DNA of 32,458 nt from Pirellulales bacterium (GTDB taxonomy: Bacteria > Planctomycetota > Planctomycetia > Pirellulales > JAEUIK01): assembly GCA_019745975.1 (NCBI GenBank), contig JAIESQ010000163.1, positions 1-32,458 on the forward strand, in the 5' to 3' direction. The notes beneath the pieces were generated by a model. It ran no database searches. It was not told the DNA's origin and worked only from the letters and a program-made list of their open reading frames with translations. The translations under genes were made by a program, and so were the position numbers. Every line of letters starts with the position of its first letter. Position 1 is the first letter of the stretch. Of this stretch, positions 1 through 13,329 are shown in pieces.

Positions 1-66
1 GACATGCCCCTGGTGTCGCCGATTCTGCCGACTGCGCGAAGGCCAGTTTTTCACCCCAGGGTGTGA

Positions 67-549
67 ACGGTTACGTTTGCCAGTGTCTGCCCGCTGGCTG
101 CAGTACAACCGGCCTATAACATGCTGCAGCGCGAGATCGAGCAGGACTTGGTTCCCTGGTGCCTGGCACAAGGCGTGGCGATCGTGGTCTACTGGCCACT
201 ATTGAAAGGATTGCTCGCCGGTAAGCTCGCGCGCGATCACGTCTTTGCCGCTGGCGACGGGAGGTCCAAGTATCCGATGTTTCAGGGCGCCGAGTGGCAA
301 AAGAACCAGGACTTTGTTGACCGGCTGCGGCCAATCGCTGTCGAAGCGGGGCTCAGCGTGGCGCAACTGGTCATCAACTGGACCGTCCATCAGCCTGGCA
401 TCACGAGTACCCTGTGCGGCGCGAAGCGCCCCGAACAAGTCATCGAGAACGCTGGCGGCGCGGCTCTCCCACTCGCGCCGGAGATTCTCGCGAAAATCGA
501 CGCGACTCTGGCCGAGCGCGGCGCGCCTCAAGTTAGCTTGCCCGTGTAG
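67..549 (+). pseudogene. Aldo/keto reductase, C-terminal part; upstream frame broken
   Basis: The translated segment QPAYNMLQREIEQDLVPWC, followed by a VVYWPLLKGLLAGKL-like stretch, is the characteristic AKR-superfamily region in which the Q-P-x-Y-N strand is followed by a helix and the (V/I)-x-Y-x-P-L-x-x-G-L-L-x-G-K strand. The rest (VAQLVINWTVHQPGI, GAKRPEQVIENAGG) matches the AKR C-terminal NADPH-binding part. Homology in this frame runs back to about position 80, beyond the first ATG at 121, but a TGA at 64-66 closes the frame and no good start lies between. The first 65 bases in the other two frames give only weak AKR-like pieces (for example SFSPQGV), which suggests a frameshift, a decayed 5' part or poor sequence at the contig edge. 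If the first ATG were used, the protein would be 142 aa, about half the usual 310-350. The substrate cannot be inferred. The stop lies 57 bp before the preferred kinase start. Confidence 0.7.
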
Positions 550-605
550 AATGGATGCGACTCGTCGCTACTTTCGTTCCGTCGCTTCAGCCTGGCTTGC
601 TTGCT

Positions 606-2594
606 ATGCCGCTGGAAAAACTGGGACCCTACCGACTCGGGCGCAGGCTCGGCCGCGGCGGCATGGGCACGGTGTATGCCGCCGTCGAAGACACTTCGCG
701 CGAGCCGGCTGCCGTCAAGGTGCTCTCGGCACATCTGGCCGACGAGGAAGGATTCCGCGAGCGTTTCGAAGCCGAAATCGAAACCCTTCGCAAGCTCCGG
801 CATCCGAACATCGTACGGCTCTATGGATTCGGCCAGCTCGACGACGTGCTGTACTATGCCATGGAGTTGGTCGAAGGGACCAGCCTCGAGGAAGAGCTGC
901 AAGGCGGCCGTCGTTTCACCTGGCAGGAAGCGGCGCAGATTGGGATCCAGGTCTGCCGCGCACTGCGGCACGCCCACGATCATGGTGTCATTCATCGCGA
1001 CTTGAAACCGGCAAACTTGCTGGCCGCGCGCGACGGCACAATCAAGCTTTCCGATTTCGGCATCGCCAAGTTGTTCGGCAATGTCGGCATGACTGGCGAC
1101 GGCGGGGTCGTTGGCACGGCGGAGTACATGTCGCCGGAACAGGCCGACAGTCGACCGATCACGCATCGCGCCGATCTGTACGCCTTGGGGGCGGTGCTCT
1201 ACGCGCTGTGCGCTGGCCGACCGCCGTTTCGTGCGCGATCGCTGGTAGAAATGCTCGAGATGCAGCGGACAGCCGTGCCGGAACCGCTACGGAAATTCGC
1301 GATGGACGTCCCCGACGAGTTCGCGGAGATTGTCGAAACGCTGTTGCTTAAGGACCCTGAGTCGCGGCCGCCAACGGCGCTCGTCTTGGGTCGCCGACTC
1401 GAAGCGACCGCACGGGGACTGCTGCGACGCGAGGGACGTGCGCCATCTCGCGAGACTGGCGAACCAGGCGATCGCCCCGCACCTGGCTCCAAATTGAGTG
1501 TGTCTCAGGGCGATGTTCCACTGCCACCGGGCGCCAAGACGCGCCACGACGACTCCTCTTTTGCGGCGACGCTCGCCGCGCCCGGCACATCGCGGGACGA
1601 TCCTTTCGGCGTCACGCGCGGCGGTCCGACGGATGTCGCCGCGCCGGCTGGCGAATTGCCGGCGGTGCTTTCCCCTGACGAACCCACGATGGCGCCGCCG
1701 CGCGCTGGGTTTCGTGTTGCTCCGCCACCACCCAGCGCGATGGATGCCAGTTGTAAATCGGCGGCAGTCGATGCGCCGCAGTCAGGCGGCGAGTCCATTG
1801 GCACGGCGGCGACCCGCTTCACTGCGGTTGCGGAAGCCGAAGCCCAACAGGCCGCGGCCGCATTGCGCCACAAACGATTCGTGCTGGCAGCGCAGGCCCT
1901 GTCGCTTGCCGCTGGGCTCTGCGTTCTGGCGGCTGGAGCTTGGTATCTATTGCGGCAGCCGACGGCAGACGCGCTCTACGACGAGATCAGCCGCGCTGCG
2001 CAGTCCGACCAGGTAGATGCCTTGGCCGCGGCCGAGCCCCGGATGCAAGACTTCCTCGCGCGGTTTAGCGACGATGCTCGCGCGATGGTAGTGCGGGGTT
2101 TTATCAATCAACTCGAACTCGACCGCCTCGAGCGACGATTGGCACGCGAGACCCGTCGCGGGGGACCGAACGTGGCAAGTTCTTCGATCGAGCGCTCCTA
2201 TCGAGAAGCCGTGGTCGCGGCCGACGAGCAGCCACAGCGCGCTGTCGCCCGGCTTGAAGCGCTGTTGACCCTGTACGATGGCGCTGTCGCCGGCGCATCC
2301 CACGAATCTGCTGACGGCGAAACACCGCAGGCGGTTCACGATCGCCGGCTCATCGAGCTTGCGCATCGACAATTGAAGCGATTAAAGCCTTTGGCCGAGC
2401 AAGCCACTGCTCAAGATCTTGCGGAAATCCACCGCCAGCTCGCCCGTGCCGCGGAACTGCAAACCGCGGAACCCGACATGGCGCGGCGCATCTGGGCGAG
2501 CTTGATTGAGCTGTATGGCGATCGACCCTGGGCGCAACAGGCGCTTGAGCCTGCCCGAGCCGGCCTGCACGCGGCCACTGCTGGTTCGCGGTAG
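606..2594 (+). CDS. Transmembrane serine/threonine protein kinase (Hanks type)
   Basis: This 662-aa protein begins with a complete Hanks-type kinase domain (about residues 7-270). It has the glycine loop GRGGMGTVY, the ATP-binding Lys38 in AVKVL, the catalytic loop HRDLKPANLL with Asp132, the DFG motif at Asp150, and SPEQ in place of APE. A long Pro/Ala-rich linker (about 285-400) leads to one membrane span (about 425-449, rich in Leu/Ala/Val). A helical, Ala/Glu/Arg-rich C-terminal region of about 210 residues is predicted outside the membrane. The architecture is that of planctomycete sensor kinases of the PknB type, with an unidentified ligand. The start at 606 (MPLEKLGPYRL) is preferred because homology begins there; an in-frame ATG at 555 would add 17 unlikely residues. 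No strong ribosome-binding site is visible. The convergent ECF sigma gene behind the shared terminator hairpin could be a regulatory partner, but that is only inference from position. Confidence 0.95.
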   Translation: MPLEKLGPYRLGRRLGRGGMGTVYAAVEDTSREPAAVKVLSAHLADEEGFRERFEAEIETLRKLRHPNIVRLYGFGQLDDVLYYAMELVEGTSLEEELQGGRRFTWQEAAQIGIQVCRALRHAHDHGVIHRDLKPANLLAARDGTIKLSDFGIAKLFGNVGMTGDGGVVGTAEYMSPEQADSRPITHRADLYALGAVLYALCAGRPPFRARSLVEMLEMQRTAVPEPLRKFAMDVPDEFAEIVETLLLKDPESRPPTALVLGRRLEATARGLLRREGRAPSRETGEPGDRPAPGSKLSVSQGDVPLPPGAKTRHDDSSFAATLAAPGTSRDDPFGVTRGGPTDVAAPAGELPAVLSPDEPTMAPPRAGFRVAPPPPSAMDASCKSAAVDAPQSGGESIGTAATRFTAVAEAEAQQAAAALRHKRFVLAAQALSLAAGLCVLAAGAWYLLRQPTADALYDEISRAAQSDQVDALAAAEPRMQDFLARFSDDARAMVVRGFINQLELDRLERRLARETRRGGPNVASSSIERSYREAVVAADEQPQRAVARLEALLTLYDGAVAGASHESADGETPQAVHDRRLIELAHRQLKRLKPLAEQATAQDLAEIHRQLARAAELQTAEPDMARRIWASLIELYGDRPWAQQALEPARAGLHAATAGSR

Positions 2595-9138: not shown

Positions 9139-9975
9139 TTACTTCGCTTGCAATCGCCGCTCGACTTCCAAAAACACGTCGCCGTGGTTCAAGTTGACCA
9201 GGTCGGCGCCAGCTTCAATGATCTTCTGAAAAGCATCTTCGTTCTTCCGTGGCTCGTACGCCATGACCTTCAGGCCACGCTCGCGGCAGGCGGACAATAC
9301 CTCGGGCGTGAGCTGCGCGACGCCCACTTCGACGATATTGGCCTGGTAACGCTCCTTCGCCTGGCGAACGTCATCCACGGTGCGCACGTTGACCTTAAGA
9401 GGCAGCTTCGCGTCGAGCTGGCGAAACTCGAGCGCGCGCCGCGGATTGTCGAACCAGAAGAAGCAGTCGTTTTCTAGGCCGACGTCGTAAACAAGCTTGG
9501 CGAGTTGCTTGAGATCGGCGTCCTTGACGTCGAAATATACCTTGGCCTTGCCCTTGATCCAGCGCAGGTACGGCTCGAGCCGCGGCACGCGCTCGCCGGC
9601 AAACGACGGATCAAACCAACTGCCGGCATCGAGCTTGTCGATTTCGTCGCTGGTCAGCGAGCGTAACAAGCCCTGTCCGTCGGTGGTGCGATTGACCGAC
9701 GCGTCGTGCAGGATATAGAGCACGCCATCCTTGCTGGTACGCACGTCGATCTCGACGTAGGCCACGCCCCACTCGACGCACTTTCGCGTCGCCGCGTAGG
9801 TGTTTTCGGGGCAGTGCTCGTTCGCGCCACGATGGCAGACGACTTCGATCTCGGCAGACGCCCGGCTTGCCAGCAACGCGAGCACAAGCGCCGCCAACCG
9901 CGGAACACCGACCACACTACAGCGCTCCAACGCCGAGCGTCTGCCTGCACACAAGCGAGGTTCGCGAGCTGGCAT
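9139..9975 (-). CDS. Exported glycerophosphodiester phosphodiesterase family protein
   Basis: The 278-aa protein begins with a signal peptide (LAALVLALLASRASA, cleavage near residue 41) followed by a GDPD TIM barrel. The catalytic signature is complete: CHRGANEHCPENTY with His48 and Glu57, YVEIDVRTSKDG with metal ligands Glu75 and Asp77, and LHD with His90. Later strands (KVYFDVK, LKVMAYEPRK, AGADLVNLNHGD) fit the family. It should hydrolyse glycerophosphodiesters to glycerol-3-phosphate and an alcohol in the periplasm, recycling phospholipid head-group products. The ATG at 9975 is preceded by GAGGAG about 10 bases upstream. The frame stays open to 10314 but the added region has no similarity and crosses the 28-bp tandem repeat. 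The gene ends 33 bp after the small acidic gene, tail to tail. Confidence 0.93.
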   Translation of the reverse strand: MPAREPRLCAGRRSALERCSVVGVPRLAALVLALLASRASAEIEVVCHRGANEHCPENTYAATRKCVEWGVAYVEIDVRTSKDGVLYILHDASVNRTTDGQGLLRSLTSDEIDKLDAGSWFDPSFAGERVPRLEPYLRWIKGKAKVYFDVKDADLKQLAKLVYDVGLENDCFFWFDNPRRALEFRQLDAKLPLKVNVRTVDDVRQAKERYQANIVEVGVAQLTPEVLSACRERGLKVMAYEPRKNEDAFQKIIEAGADLVNLNHGDVFLEVERRLQAK

Positions 9976-10136
9976 TTCGACGTACTCCTCGAAATTCTGC
10001 TCGGGGGACGCGGTCCGCTTCGGCAGCGGCAGCACGGTTGCCGCATCACAGGCTGCGTAATCTAGGGGAACAAACACCGAAGGTAGTGGAAATACGCTAA
10101 CCCTGATTGAGGGCGTTCGCCAGCGGTGCAGACCAC

Positions 10137-10192
10137 AATCGCGATACGCGGAGAATGACACCCTAATCGCGATACGCGGAGAATGACACCCT
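10137..10192. repeat. Perfect 28-bp tandem direct repeat (two units)
   Basis: Units 10137-10164 and 10165-10192 are identical over all 28 bases and directly adjacent. On the minus strand each unit begins with AGGGTGTCATTCTCCGCG and ends with the CGCGATT block. There is no spacer, so this is not a CRISPR fragment. Repeated GTGTCATT...CCGCG-type blocks resemble the multi-repeat termini of some IS21-family elements, to which transposase binds, so a solitary transposon end or a regulator site is possible. The resemblance is from memory and unverified. Confidence 0.8.
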
Positions 10193-10277
10193 GCCCACCT
10201 GCGGAAGGTCACAAGTCCAGATCGTAAGGACAGTTGTTTGAATCGCTGCGCAGCTATCAGTAATTGCTGCGGCCTCG

Positions 10278-10293
10278 CAGGAAGTCCTTCCTG
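10278..10293. promoter_or_regulatory. Palindrome CAGGAAG-TC-CTTCCTG
   Basis: Seven-base arms CAGGAAG (10278-10284) and CTTCCTG (10287-10293) surround a 2-base centre, so this is a dyad suited to binding a dimeric regulator. It is 171 bp before the start of the fused membrane protein. Function is inferred from symmetry only. Confidence 0.3.
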
Positions 10294-10464
10294 AACCGCG
10301 ACTTTGGAAGACACCAGGAGCTGATTTCCAGTCGAAGCTCCGCCCCCTGCAAGGTTTCACTTACCGGCACGGCCGGCTCAAGCCTTACGGCTGGCAGGGC
10401 CGATAGAACCGATACCCTCCCAACTGACCCGCAAAGTTTCTCACCCGCCCGTTCGAGACGTGTC

Positions 10465-13329
10465 ATGAAGATGCTCCGGATTCTGTTGGGTTTTTCCCGC
10501 CGTGTAGGCCAGACGCAGGGAGTCGCGCTGGCAGTTCTTCTGGGACTGCTGGCCGGCTTTGTGGGAGGTTGGAATCTCTCCCTCGTTGCGTTGTTGCTAC
10601 TGGCGGTCGTCTTCAACGTGCGCGCGCGGACGTTCTTCGTCATGTGGGTCGCCGGCCTCACGCTATCGTGGATGTTGGTCCCCCTGAGTTTTGGGCTCGG
10701 CCGCTGGCTTTTGGATCACACCGGGCTGGGGAAATGGCTTGCTGCGAACTTCGACGAACAGTTGATCGCCTGGTTCGGGTGGGATCGCTACACGCTCGTC
10801 GGCGGGACTTTATTGGCGCTATTCCTAGCTGTGCCGACGGTGCTGGGGCTGCGCGCCTGGCGACGCGGCAAGCGGCAAACAGGTCAAGCCAACCAAGTTT
10901 GTGGGAACGCGACGCCCGGCACCTCCAAACTTACATCGACTAATCCTGACATGCGCTCACGACGCCGCGGATCAGGTTCAGCACTTTGGCGCAGATGGCT
11001 TGGCGCGGCTGAAGACGTCCTGATCCCAGAAGCGGCGCCGGCAACCGTCAGCTTGGTACGTCCCTGGGCACTCTGGGGACTGGTTGCCAGCCTGGCAACC
11101 GCGGCATTGGCCACGTGGTTGCTAACCCCACGCTTTGCCGCCGTGCGATTGATCGAAGTGCTCACTTGGGCCAACGGTGCGGAGGTCGCCGCCCACCGCG
11201 TCCGCATCACGCCCTGGACCGGCCACGTCGAAATCGATGGGCTAACGGTCGCCGATCCGTCGTTCCCCGATCACGACCGCTTGCGAATCGGACGTTTATG
11301 GGGCCAGCTCGACATGACCGCGCTCGTCCGCGGTCGGCTGATGATCGAGAGCATGCAGGTCACCGGCGTTGCTACGAACTCCATTCCAAACCATGCAGCC
11401 GGAGTCGTCGGCATGAGCGGTGGGGACAACGAGCCGCGTTGCGACATAGCTGATGGCGGGGATGCGACAACCGCAAGCGAGGCGGGTCAAGTCGCACTTG
11501 GCGACTGCCTCGATTGCTGGGGCCTGGCTGCCGACAATGTGCGACGTCTCGAACAACTACTGGAAGGGCTGGAAGCCGTGGCGGCGCTCGACACCGTCGC
11601 GCCCAGGCGAGCGATGTCGCTGTCTGAGCAACGTGCTGCCCGTTCGCTTCTCGGCAAAGTCGATCCACGCGTGCACGTGCGCGAACTGCTTGCTGAAGGT
11701 TTTCCGCTATCCTGGCAGCTCGGCAGCGACGCCCAGTTGCGGATCACCGATCTGGCGAGCGGGGCACCACCAGCCGCACGACCCGCGCGAGTGGTCGTGC
11801 GGATTCCGCAGCATGCGCTCGATCTGCGGGTGACCCTCGCCACGTGCGACGATCGATCCGTGGCAGGACACGGTGTCGAGTTCCATCTGTTCGACGCCCC
11901 GGCGATCGCGTTGTTGTCGCCGCCATCGGGAAGTCAGCGGCTGGTCTGCGAATCCGGCATGCTCACTTTCGCTGGCCGCGGCCAGATTACTCGGCGCGGT
12001 CTCGCGATTACGGGCGCCTTGCGGGCTGATCGCCTCAAGGCGCACGTGATTGGCGGCGAGCCGCTGGGCGGTCTCGATCCAGCGGTCTGGAACCAAGCAT
12101 TGCGTTCGATCGCGCGATTGCAAACGTCGTTCGCGGTCCGCGGCAGCCTCGCTCGGCCGACCCTGATGCTCGATCCTTTTCAAGTTGTGCAGCATATCGA
12201 AGCCGAATTACGAAATGTCGGACAACATCGACTTGCGGCACACGTGGAGCAATGCCTGACCGGCACTCGGCTCGGAGAGGCCTCGACGAACTCGTCTGCT
12301 GAGTTGCCAAGCAACGAGTGGCTCAATCCAACTAGGGACCAGGGCGGAGTGGCCTCCATGCCCACGGCGGCAGCCAACAGCGCGGCCGCAGTCGCCGTAG
12401 ACGAGGAGGCGGGAGGGACCCCGGCATTCAATACCGCGCCTGCCTGGTCGCAACCTTGCGCAGCCCCGGCCGAAGCATTGCTGGCCGCATCGCCAGTTGC
12501 GACCGCTTCCCCCAACTTTCAGCAGGACGCGGCCTTGCCACCCGAAATTGCCGAAGCCGTCACGAGCGATCAGCCTCCCAGCGTCGAATTCGAGCCTCCG
12601 GTGCAGGCAGCTCAGCCAAATGCGCCGGCGTCCGTCGGGGGTTTGGTGCAGGCTAGTCCGGTCGCCGTTCCAGAGTCGCCTTATGTAAGCGTTCGATTCT
12701 CGCCAGCGACTCCGCTCGGTCCGGGAGCAATCGATCTGGTGACTGGTCAAGACCCTGCCGATCGCCCAGCACCTGTCGCGTATCGCCAAGTGGTTGAGCC
12801 GGTCGATGCGACCGTGGACTGGCCGCTCGACCGGACCGCGTCAGCGGTGGCCAGCTCGATCGACGTCGCAGCAAATCCACCTGTGGAAGCGCTACCACTA
12901 GTCTCTGCATCGAACGACGTGGTTTCGGCAGCGACAAACACGCCTGCCGACTTGGCCACTTCAACCCAGCCTGAAACGGAATCGCAGCGGAGCTCGGCGT
13001 CGACTCCGCATGAGCGACGCGAGCCGCCGACCGACCCCGGCAAGCAGGAAAGTTGGAGCAAGAAACTCTCCAACTGGTCGCGAACAACGCTCGCGCAGGC
13101 GCGCGAGATCGCCTGGCCCTTCGGTAAAGAGAAACTCCCCGAGGAGCCCGAGCTTAGTGGTGATGAATGGCCCAGCGACTCGTCGTGGCGAGTAGGCTCG
13201 AAAATCCAGCGGAGCCCAGCCTCGGCAGGTGCCCGTTCGGAACGCACGGCCTCCGCCGAGCGTTCAACCTCCCGTGGCCGGGCCGCGAGCAACTCCAGTG
13301 ATTCGCGTAGCAAGCGGCGGCTGCGCTAG
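10465..13329 (+). CDS. Fused TIGR03546-TIGR03545-like membrane protein
   Basis: This 954-aa protein combines two families that I know as separate adjacent genes in proteobacteria. Residues about 1-140 (MLRILLGFSRRVGQTQGVAL then hydrophobic segments GLLAGFVGGWNLSLVALLLLA, FVMWVAGLTLSWMLVPLSFG and LLALFLAVPTVLGL) look like TIGR03546. After a polar linker, a further membrane span (about 200-222, ALWGLVASLATAALATWLL) begins a TIGR03545/AsmA-like segment, with NGAEVAAHRVRITPWTGHVEI then LTVADPSFPDHDRL and GQLDMTALVRGRLMIESMQV. The last third (from about residue 630) is Ala/Pro/Ser-rich and apparently disordered, ending in a basic tail (SRSKRRLR). Both families are uncharacterised; the AsmA-like part suggests an envelope role. 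The ATG at 10465 was chosen at the start of family similarity. Family assignment is from pattern memory, so I am sure of the membrane architecture but less so of the names. Confidence 0.85.
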   Translation: MKMLRILLGFSRRVGQTQGVALAVLLGLLAGFVGGWNLSLVALLLLAVVFNVRARTFFVMWVAGLTLSWMLVPLSFGLGRWLLDHTGLGKWLAANFDEQLIAWFGWDRYTLVGGTLLALFLAVPTVLGLRAWRRGKRQTGQANQVCGNATPGTSKLTSTNPDMRSRRRGSGSALWRRWLGAAEDVLIPEAAPATVSLVRPWALWGLVASLATAALATWLLTPRFAAVRLIEVLTWANGAEVAAHRVRITPWTGHVEIDGLTVADPSFPDHDRLRIGRLWGQLDMTALVRGRLMIESMQVTGVATNSIPNHAAGVVGMSGGDNEPRCDIADGGDATTASEAGQVALGDCLDCWGLAADNVRRLEQLLEGLEAVAALDTVAPRRAMSLSEQRAARSLLGKVDPRVHVRELLAEGFPLSWQLGSDAQLRITDLASGAPPAARPARVVVRIPQHALDLRVTLATCDDRSVAGHGVEFHLFDAPAIALLSPPSGSQRLVCESGMLTFAGRGQITRRGLAITGALRADRLKAHVIGGEPLGGLDPAVWNQALRSIARLQTSFAVRGSLARPTLMLDPFQVVQHIEAELRNVGQHRLAAHVEQCLTGTRLGEASTNSSAELPSNEWLNPTRDQGGVASMPTAAANSAAAVAVDEEAGGTPAFNTAPAWSQPCAAPAEALLAASPVATASPNFQQDAALPPEIAEAVTSDQPPSVEFEPPVQAAQPNAPASVGGLVQASPVAVPESPYVSVRFSPATPLGPGAIDLVTGQDPADRPAPVAYRQVVEPVDATVDWPLDRTASAVASSIDVAANPPVEALPLVSASNDVVSAATNTPADLATSTQPETESQRSSASTPHERREPPTDPGKQESWSKKLSNWSRTTLAQAREIAWPFGKEKLPEEPELSGDEWPSDSSWRVGSKIQRSPASAGARSERTASAERSTSRGRAASNSSDSRSKRRLR

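Follow-up and report, generated by a model that had tools for sequence, protein, structure and literature searches.

The 32,458-nucleotide contig JAIESQ010000163.1 of a Pirellulales bacterium (assembly GCA_019745975.1; this whole stretch of DNA is hereafter called the window) carries at positions 10465–13329 of the forward strand an open reading frame (ORF) for a 954-residue protein that joins, in a single chain, an N-terminal membrane domain of the TIGR03546/DUF2062 type, an AsmA-like part related to TIGR03545 and a long C-terminal tail. We propose that the fused protein is probably an inner-membrane AsmA-type lipid conduit, whose integral membrane domain would help to load or to accept lipid. 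What the analysis itself establishes is how the protein is built, the sequence homology of both parts, a fold predicted for it and a fusion that recurs in related genomes. TIGR03545 and TIGR03546 are curated families that were termed functionally uncharacterised in 2014 (PMC4035852; statements on cited work refer throughout to excerpts of the papers).

Results

Two families in one reading frame

In searches of NCBIfam with the 954-residue protein, TIGR03546 matched residues 17–125 (43.7 bits, E 2.6e-11; model positions 16–124 of 154, that is, most of the model) and TIGR03545 matched residues 210–305 (29.5 bits, E 2.7e-7; model positions 15–109 of 556), with nothing else at E<=10. Because both scores fall short of the curated cut-offs (79.45 and 173.35 bits, respectively), we regard the protein as a divergent homologue and an outlier of both families rather than a model-grade member. 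The first match also bears on the choice of the start codon: a TTG at 10264 would yield a 1021-residue form, but we favour the ATG at 10465 (stop codon at 13327–13329) because the TIGR03546 match starts at residue 17 of the ATG form, which corresponds to profile position 16. The Pfam models DUF748 (residues 201–304, E 2.7e-7) and DUF2062 (PF09835; residues 13–134, E 0.0087, 16.5 bits for a cut-off of 27.4 bits) both matched under their cut-offs, a Sgf11 row (E 0.08) was at chance level, and neither TamB nor AsmA matched at E<=1. An initial annotation made from the sequence alone had claimed that one ORF joins the two families, with a TIGR03546-like N-terminal part; both hidden Markov model matches are present, and the fusion forms a single uninterrupted frame in the window as well as in its relatives. 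Within an alignment of 49 rows that includes the window protein, TIGR03546 was found in all 49, TIGR03545 in 43 and DUF748 in 39, counts that are partly circular because many rows were picked from family searches; with Pfam at E<=0.01, AsmA matched four rows and YhdP two. One of the 49 rows matches the NCBIfam model of the type IV secretion effector BspA (E 7.6e-4).

The AsmA-like part

Comparison of profiles extended the similarity of the middle part over nearly all of TIGR03545. A profile of residues 196–620, from which we dropped rows covering the compared part with no more than 60 residues, aligned to 13 planctomycete TIGR03545 proteins (a fused one among them) over 394 columns and TIGR03545 positions 1–524 of 553 (probability 99.8, E 9.9e-28), a colinear homology of almost full length in which the middle of TIGR03545 (about 113–335) has a shorter counterpart. 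The C-terminal half (310–620) alone still matched TIGR03545, at E 2.9e-15 when the full profile was used and at 5.9e-12 when it was limited to 18 close rows, compared with E 0.57–0.83 and probabilities of 0.1 or less for five column-shuffled controls of the full C-terminal profile. At the other end, residues 11–109 of Escherichia coli AsmA aligned to the membrane helix and the chorein-N part (P 7.8e-5, probability 61.5), while eight E. coli controls gave P 0.22 or more. A membrane span followed by an AsmA-like block resembling TIGR03545, as originally annotated, is thus what the profiles recover.

An AlphaFold model of residues 1–620, computed from the 49-row alignment (mean predicted local distance difference test score, pLDDT, 84.4; predicted template modelling score 0.79), has the membrane domain, then one more membrane helix and after it a groove rich in beta strands, whose body comprises about 14 predicted strands between residues 245 and 569. 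Hydrophobic alternation summed over the strands was matched by 13 of 2000 shuffles. The first four Foldseek rows from the PDB came from two Atg2 entries (N-domain chains; E 0.03–0.24), and the first VIA rows were Vps13 (Z 6.2, root-mean-square deviation (rmsd) 5.2, 173 residues aligned) and the LPD-3 complex (Z 5.9, rmsd 7.3, 222 aligned), followed by two TamB rows (Z 5.4, rmsd 8.8, 199 aligned; Z 5.3, rmsd 8.6, 193 aligned). None of these scores reaches significance when taken singly; what carries weight is that the top rows point to a single class, the bridge-like lipid-transfer proteins, among which we count LPD-3. A beta groove, to which the initial annotation had directed attention, is present in the model, with structural matches that are each weak. 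We conclude that the middle part is supported as AsmA/chorein-like by profile and, more weakly, by predicted fold.

The N-terminal membrane domain

The profile of the N-terminal domain matched DUF2062 with probability 97.1 and E 5.4e-11, establishing at the profile level the homology that the window sequence alone leaves under the cut-off. Folded alone, the domain reached a pLDDT of 90.3, with a first helix at residues 16–33 (17–32 in the 1–620 model); the further helices of the domain in the 1–620 model lie at 38–49, 54–70, 72–85 and 109–147. No convincing solved fold was found for it: the best Foldseek E was 1.9 and the best VIA Z 4.6 among 47 chains, with nothing coherent. Solved relatives were also sought by sequence profile, and as the best E values were 2.2 and 1.5, none was accepted. 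We also considered a DedA/VTT origin and rejected it, as comparison with a profile built on 30 DedA (PF09335) proteins of this phylum, collected by searching 40 genomes, yielded a probability of 0.6 over 17 columns; the absence of DedA-type structures from the structural rows excludes nothing. The stretch 132–198 holds 11 K/R and 4 D/E, so that the loop at 148–199 is probably cytoplasmic, and since this positive loop precedes the helix at 200–237, the positive-inside rule would place the beta body in the periplasm.

In ten larger DUF2062 proteins of the phylum, the partners were Maf (three), a family 2 glycosyltransferase (two), a lipid A acyltransferase-like domain (one) and DUF3108 (one), with none recognised in three. 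Lipid-linked chemistry would fit the glycosyltransferase and the acyltransferase-like partners, but not Maf. DUF2062 fusions occur among loci L151, L157, L160, L164, L165 and L166, the partner being a glycosyltransferase in L164 and L165 and the lipid A acyltransferase-like domain in L166.

Distribution and age of the fusion

The fusion recurs among relatives. All seven genomes of the window's family, its own included, hold a match to the fused protein, which is a single match across both parts in four, a pair of matches in one open frame in two and, in the seventh (G002), a match over residues 17–367 that ends at the contig end. Within an order-level set of 97 genomes (its own, six of the family and 90 of the order), 24 match the window protein, five of these over the N-terminal domain only. 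Across 294 genomes of the phylum, TIGR03546 matched in 146 (26 over cut-off) and TIGR03545 in 165 (15 over cut-off), and each was found, sub-threshold, in two of 14 control genomes. We then paired the best 112 of the 150 TIGR03546 rows listed (the 38 weakest were omitted) with 68 TIGR03545 rows chosen by eye for sharing a contig with a TIGR03546 row, which makes the counts lower bounds: at least 33 have both families in the same frame, at least 34 have them as neighbours no more than 3 kb apart on one strand, and 45 lack a listed partner, so that at least 67 of the 112 are fused or adjacent. Some of the 45 may be plain DUF2062 proteins, and one (G374) matches the fused profile. Both fused and split forms, for which the initial annotation had proposed a survey of planctomycete genomes, thus exist; the adjacent separate genes, which that annotation ascribed to proteobacteria, were counted here in planctomycete genomes. 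Fusion and adjacency together suggest a joint function of the two domains.

With a profile of 29 fused rows, every one of 20 further stretches yielded a matching ORF (E 1.8e-16 to 9.8e-165); 19 of the stretches had previously been listed as fused. In a tree of 60 N-terminal domains (42 labelled fused and 18 split), 39 fused rows including the window's lie on one side of a branch with support 96/87, and the other side holds all 18 split rows together with three rows labelled fused, of which L048 falls among the split ones. The tree requires two changes of state, only one of which is forced by well-supported branches, and the fusion may therefore have a single origin. For this tree L049 was dropped, 18 of the 25 adjacent-split loci were used, and L056 was labelled fused from a 751-residue frame with no listed TIGR03545 match. 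The branch that holds the window has 39 rows, every one labelled fused, which makes the fusion old in the window's lineage.

Table 1. Features of the fused gene (positions in the window; residues of the 954-residue protein)
Feature	Positions	Residues	Strand	Basis or remark
Whole gene	10465–13329	1–954	+	954 residues, ATG start
N-terminal membrane domain, TIGR03546/DUF2062-like	10465–10905	1–147	+	Family matches, profile comparison, model
Variable loop, mostly of low confidence	10906–11061	148–199	+	AlphaFold model, composition
Further membrane helix, predicted anchor of the AsmA-like part	11062–11175	200–237	+	Model, composition
Chorein-N/AsmA-type start of the predicted groove	11176–11382	238–306	+	TIGR03545 and DUF748 matches, model, AsmA alignment
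Mostly helical middle, shorter than its TIGR03545 equivalent	11488–11637	342–391	+	Model, profile comparison
C-terminal half of beta-rich body, colinear with the TIGR03545 end	11671–12174	403–570	+	Model, profile comparison, strand alternation
Closing long helix	12175–12282	571–606	+	Model
Pro/Ala/Ser-rich tail, presumed disordered	12283–13326	607–954	+	Composition
Trp-containing amphipathic stretch, the most amphipathic of the tail	13054–13125	864–887	+	Similar in five relatives

The tail and the genomic context

The model covers the tail only to residue 620, with pLDDT under 50 at 613–620, and we presume from composition that the tail is disordered. Residues 601–954 are rich in Ala, Ser and Pro and contain 8.2% K+R compared with 12.1% D+E; the basic part is only about the last 44 residues (12 K/R and 3 D/E, counted by eye). 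Of the long, disordered and basic tail initially described, the length holds and the disorder is plausible, but the basic character is confined to the end. The Trp-containing stretch lies inside a tail otherwise of low complexity; of ten order-level relatives for which a most amphipathic stretch was listed, five (L002, L003, L009, L014 and L015) likewise have Trp in it. An aromatic-basic C-terminal peptide, a pattern defined after seeing the sequences, ends 11 of 15 order-level fused proteins with a complete end (L177, L181–L188, L009 and L018) whereas 8 of 779 background ORFs end in it; of five proteins in the window's family only one carries it, and the window protein is without it. Most fused proteins from other parts of the phylum are shorter, so that the great length of the tail seems to have been added in this order.

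A GDPD-family ORF (9139–10314, reverse strand) is found upstream in divergent orientation, with 150 bases separating the listed starts, and downstream are an ammonium transporter gene (amt) and glnD, encoding GlnD. We compared the neighbours of 21 regions, scanning representatives for some clusters; among the clusters listed in full, the window shares only an ORF resembling an extracytoplasmic-function sigma factor about 7 kb away (four regions) and the ORF at 537–2591 (three regions). The nearest amt genes are in records of Planctomycetota, many of them Pirellulales, and the fused-protein profile found no match around related amt genes, for which the best 80 of 305 loci were searched with flanks of up to 5 kb. 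As neither comparison gave a link, we treat the GDPD, amt and glnD neighbours as incidental.

Pfam TamB had no match in the whole genome at E<=0.001, and neither had Pfam AsmA, which says little because that model was found in only two of 14 control genomes. TamB did not pass its cut-off in any of the 97 order-level genomes (there was one sub-cut-off match), whereas six of the 14 control genomes match it; bacteria of this order may therefore build their outer membrane with other bridges.

Discussion

Beyond the homology and the modelled fold, we infer a topology, a lipid cargo, and roles for the N-terminal domain and for the tail. Lipid is the likely cargo by analogy, because superfamily relatives and chorein-N domains handle lipid: phospholipid transport in E. 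coli has been tied to YhdP, TamB and YdbH (PMC8593681), and chorein-N domains have been linked to lipid transfer (PMC6791001). In the mechanism that we envisage, the TIGR03546/DUF2062-like domain (residues 1–147) would collect lipid in the inner membrane or pass it on there, the helix at 200–237 would take the chain into the periplasm, and the beta groove (238–606) would shield acyl chains as lipid moves outward. At about 0.5 nm per strand, the approximately 14 strands would form a groove of perhaps 6–7 nm, and because this is shorter than an envelope crossing, the path would have to be completed either by the tail, whose amphipathic Trp-containing stretch could tether the groove to peptidoglycan or the outer membrane, or by a partner that finishes the bridge.

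Several observations weigh against this proposal. With respect to structure, the Atg2 rows from Foldseek are weak (best E 0.03, query TM-scores 0.10–0.15) and are followed at rank 5 by the unrelated nitrobindin (E 0.24), the top VIA Z of 6.2 falls within the tool's 'common' range with the unrelated BcsC cellulose channel (Z 5.1) and SAS-6 (4.7) close behind, and only one of the 14 strands alternates significantly by itself. At the sequence level, E. coli YicH and TamB aligned less well to the N-terminal part of the groove (P 0.006 and 0.066). Within the order-level set, 73 of the 97 genomes have no match to the window sequence at E<=0.001, and none of the recurring neighbours scanned is a lipid gene: 8 of 21 regions have a release-factor gene and 5 of 21 one resembling trmU, the window belonging to neither group. 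The fusion of DUF2062 to Maf in three of the ten proteins scanned gives no pointer to lipid. Finally, the genome encodes a second, larger DUF748 protein over the Pfam cut-off (L196, G000:C191:83327-84526, in a 1232-residue frame), which is possibly an additional lipid bridge, and a third that scores weakly; we accordingly discarded the idea that the fused protein is the sole bridge.

The best-surviving rival holds that the N-terminal domain is only a multi-pass anchor or localisation module, that the AsmA-like part acts alone, and that the two became fused through the order of their genes and not through a reaction in common. In alignments of the N-terminal domain, only glycines occupy the invariant and nearly invariant positions, which suits an anchor, as does the lack of a convincing solved fold, and a single N-terminal membrane helix suffices to anchor TamB (PMC6791001). 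Yet the pairing, fused or split, is kept in at least 67 of the 112 rows, and the N-terminal domain is better conserved than the groove: across 17 order-level rows, mean identity to the window protein is 0.38–0.45 for N-terminal blocks (residues 31–120) and 0.13–0.34 for groove blocks. We judge the anchor explanation to be rather unlikely. The appearance of TamB chains among the first VIA rows, in an order with no TamB over the Pfam cut-off where another protein might fill its role, would also fit a TamB-type envelope-assembly factor that aids the insertion of outer-membrane proteins, with lipid transfer secondary or absent, but the protein itself lacks a Pfam TamB match even at E<=1 and we hold this to be quite improbable. 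Equally little credence goes to a tether or scaffold in the periplasm that carries out no transport and keeps a structural lipid or peptide in its groove, an arrangement that a short groove, a long tail and the aromatic-basic end of most order-level proteins would suit, but against which stand the transfer of phospholipids by the chorein-N domains of VPS13 and ATG2 (PMC6791001) and the implication of AsmA-like proteins in phospholipid transport (PMC8593681).

In the proposed lipid conduit, one chain links a multi-helix membrane domain to an AsmA-like part; this form characterises a long-lived branch of the phylum, and elsewhere the membrane domain is encoded by a separate adjoining gene. To our knowledge, the way in which lipids get into AsmA-type bridges at the inner membrane is an open question. 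A bolder version, which we find conceivable but doubtful, would make the TIGR03546/DUF2062-like domain a dedicated inner-membrane lipid-loading module for AsmA-type bridges, scramblase- or feeder-like and without detectable sequence kinship to DedA, and the fusion a one-chain bacterial counterpart of the eukaryotic partnership between scramblases and VPS13 or ATG2. In the open literature that we searched, we found neither the AsmA identity of the TIGR03546/TIGR03545 pair, nor a function of the DUF2062-like part, nor a paper joining 'AsmA-like' with DUF2062.

Comparison with known systems

The fusion as such has been in print since 2014: an ortholog-clustering paper names NAMH_0533 of Nautilia and FTT_0505 of Francisella as plausible fused TIGR03546/TIGR03545 genes (PMC4035852). 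These join the same two families as the window protein, which differs from the TIGR03546/TIGR03545 pair in scoring under both cut-offs, in its shortened TIGR03545 middle and in its tail of about 350 residues. With the AsmA family (E. coli AsmA and YicH; DUF748) the protein shares a membrane helix followed by a chorein-N-like start, to which it adds a membrane domain in front, a short groove and a tail. Links to TamB, YhdP and YdbH come from the TamB chains among the first structural rows and from the YhdP matches in two of the 49 alignment rows, but the window protein is much shorter than these and has no Pfam TamB match. The eukaryotic chorein-N bridges VPS13 and ATG2 are the nearest solved folds to the model, albeit with weak scores; unlike them, the window protein would act in a bacterial envelope and has its membrane partner covalently attached. 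The N-terminal domain belongs with DUF2062 at the profile level. DedA/VTT membrane proteins have been proposed as partners of AsmA bridges (PMC10127716), and the idea of a multi-pass inner-membrane lipid handler that feeds an AsmA bridge is common to both, although the N-terminal domain has no profile relation to DedA/VTT. TIGR03546/DUF2062 would thus be a concrete candidate for the loading of AsmA-type bridges, distinct from DedA and covalently linked to the bridge.

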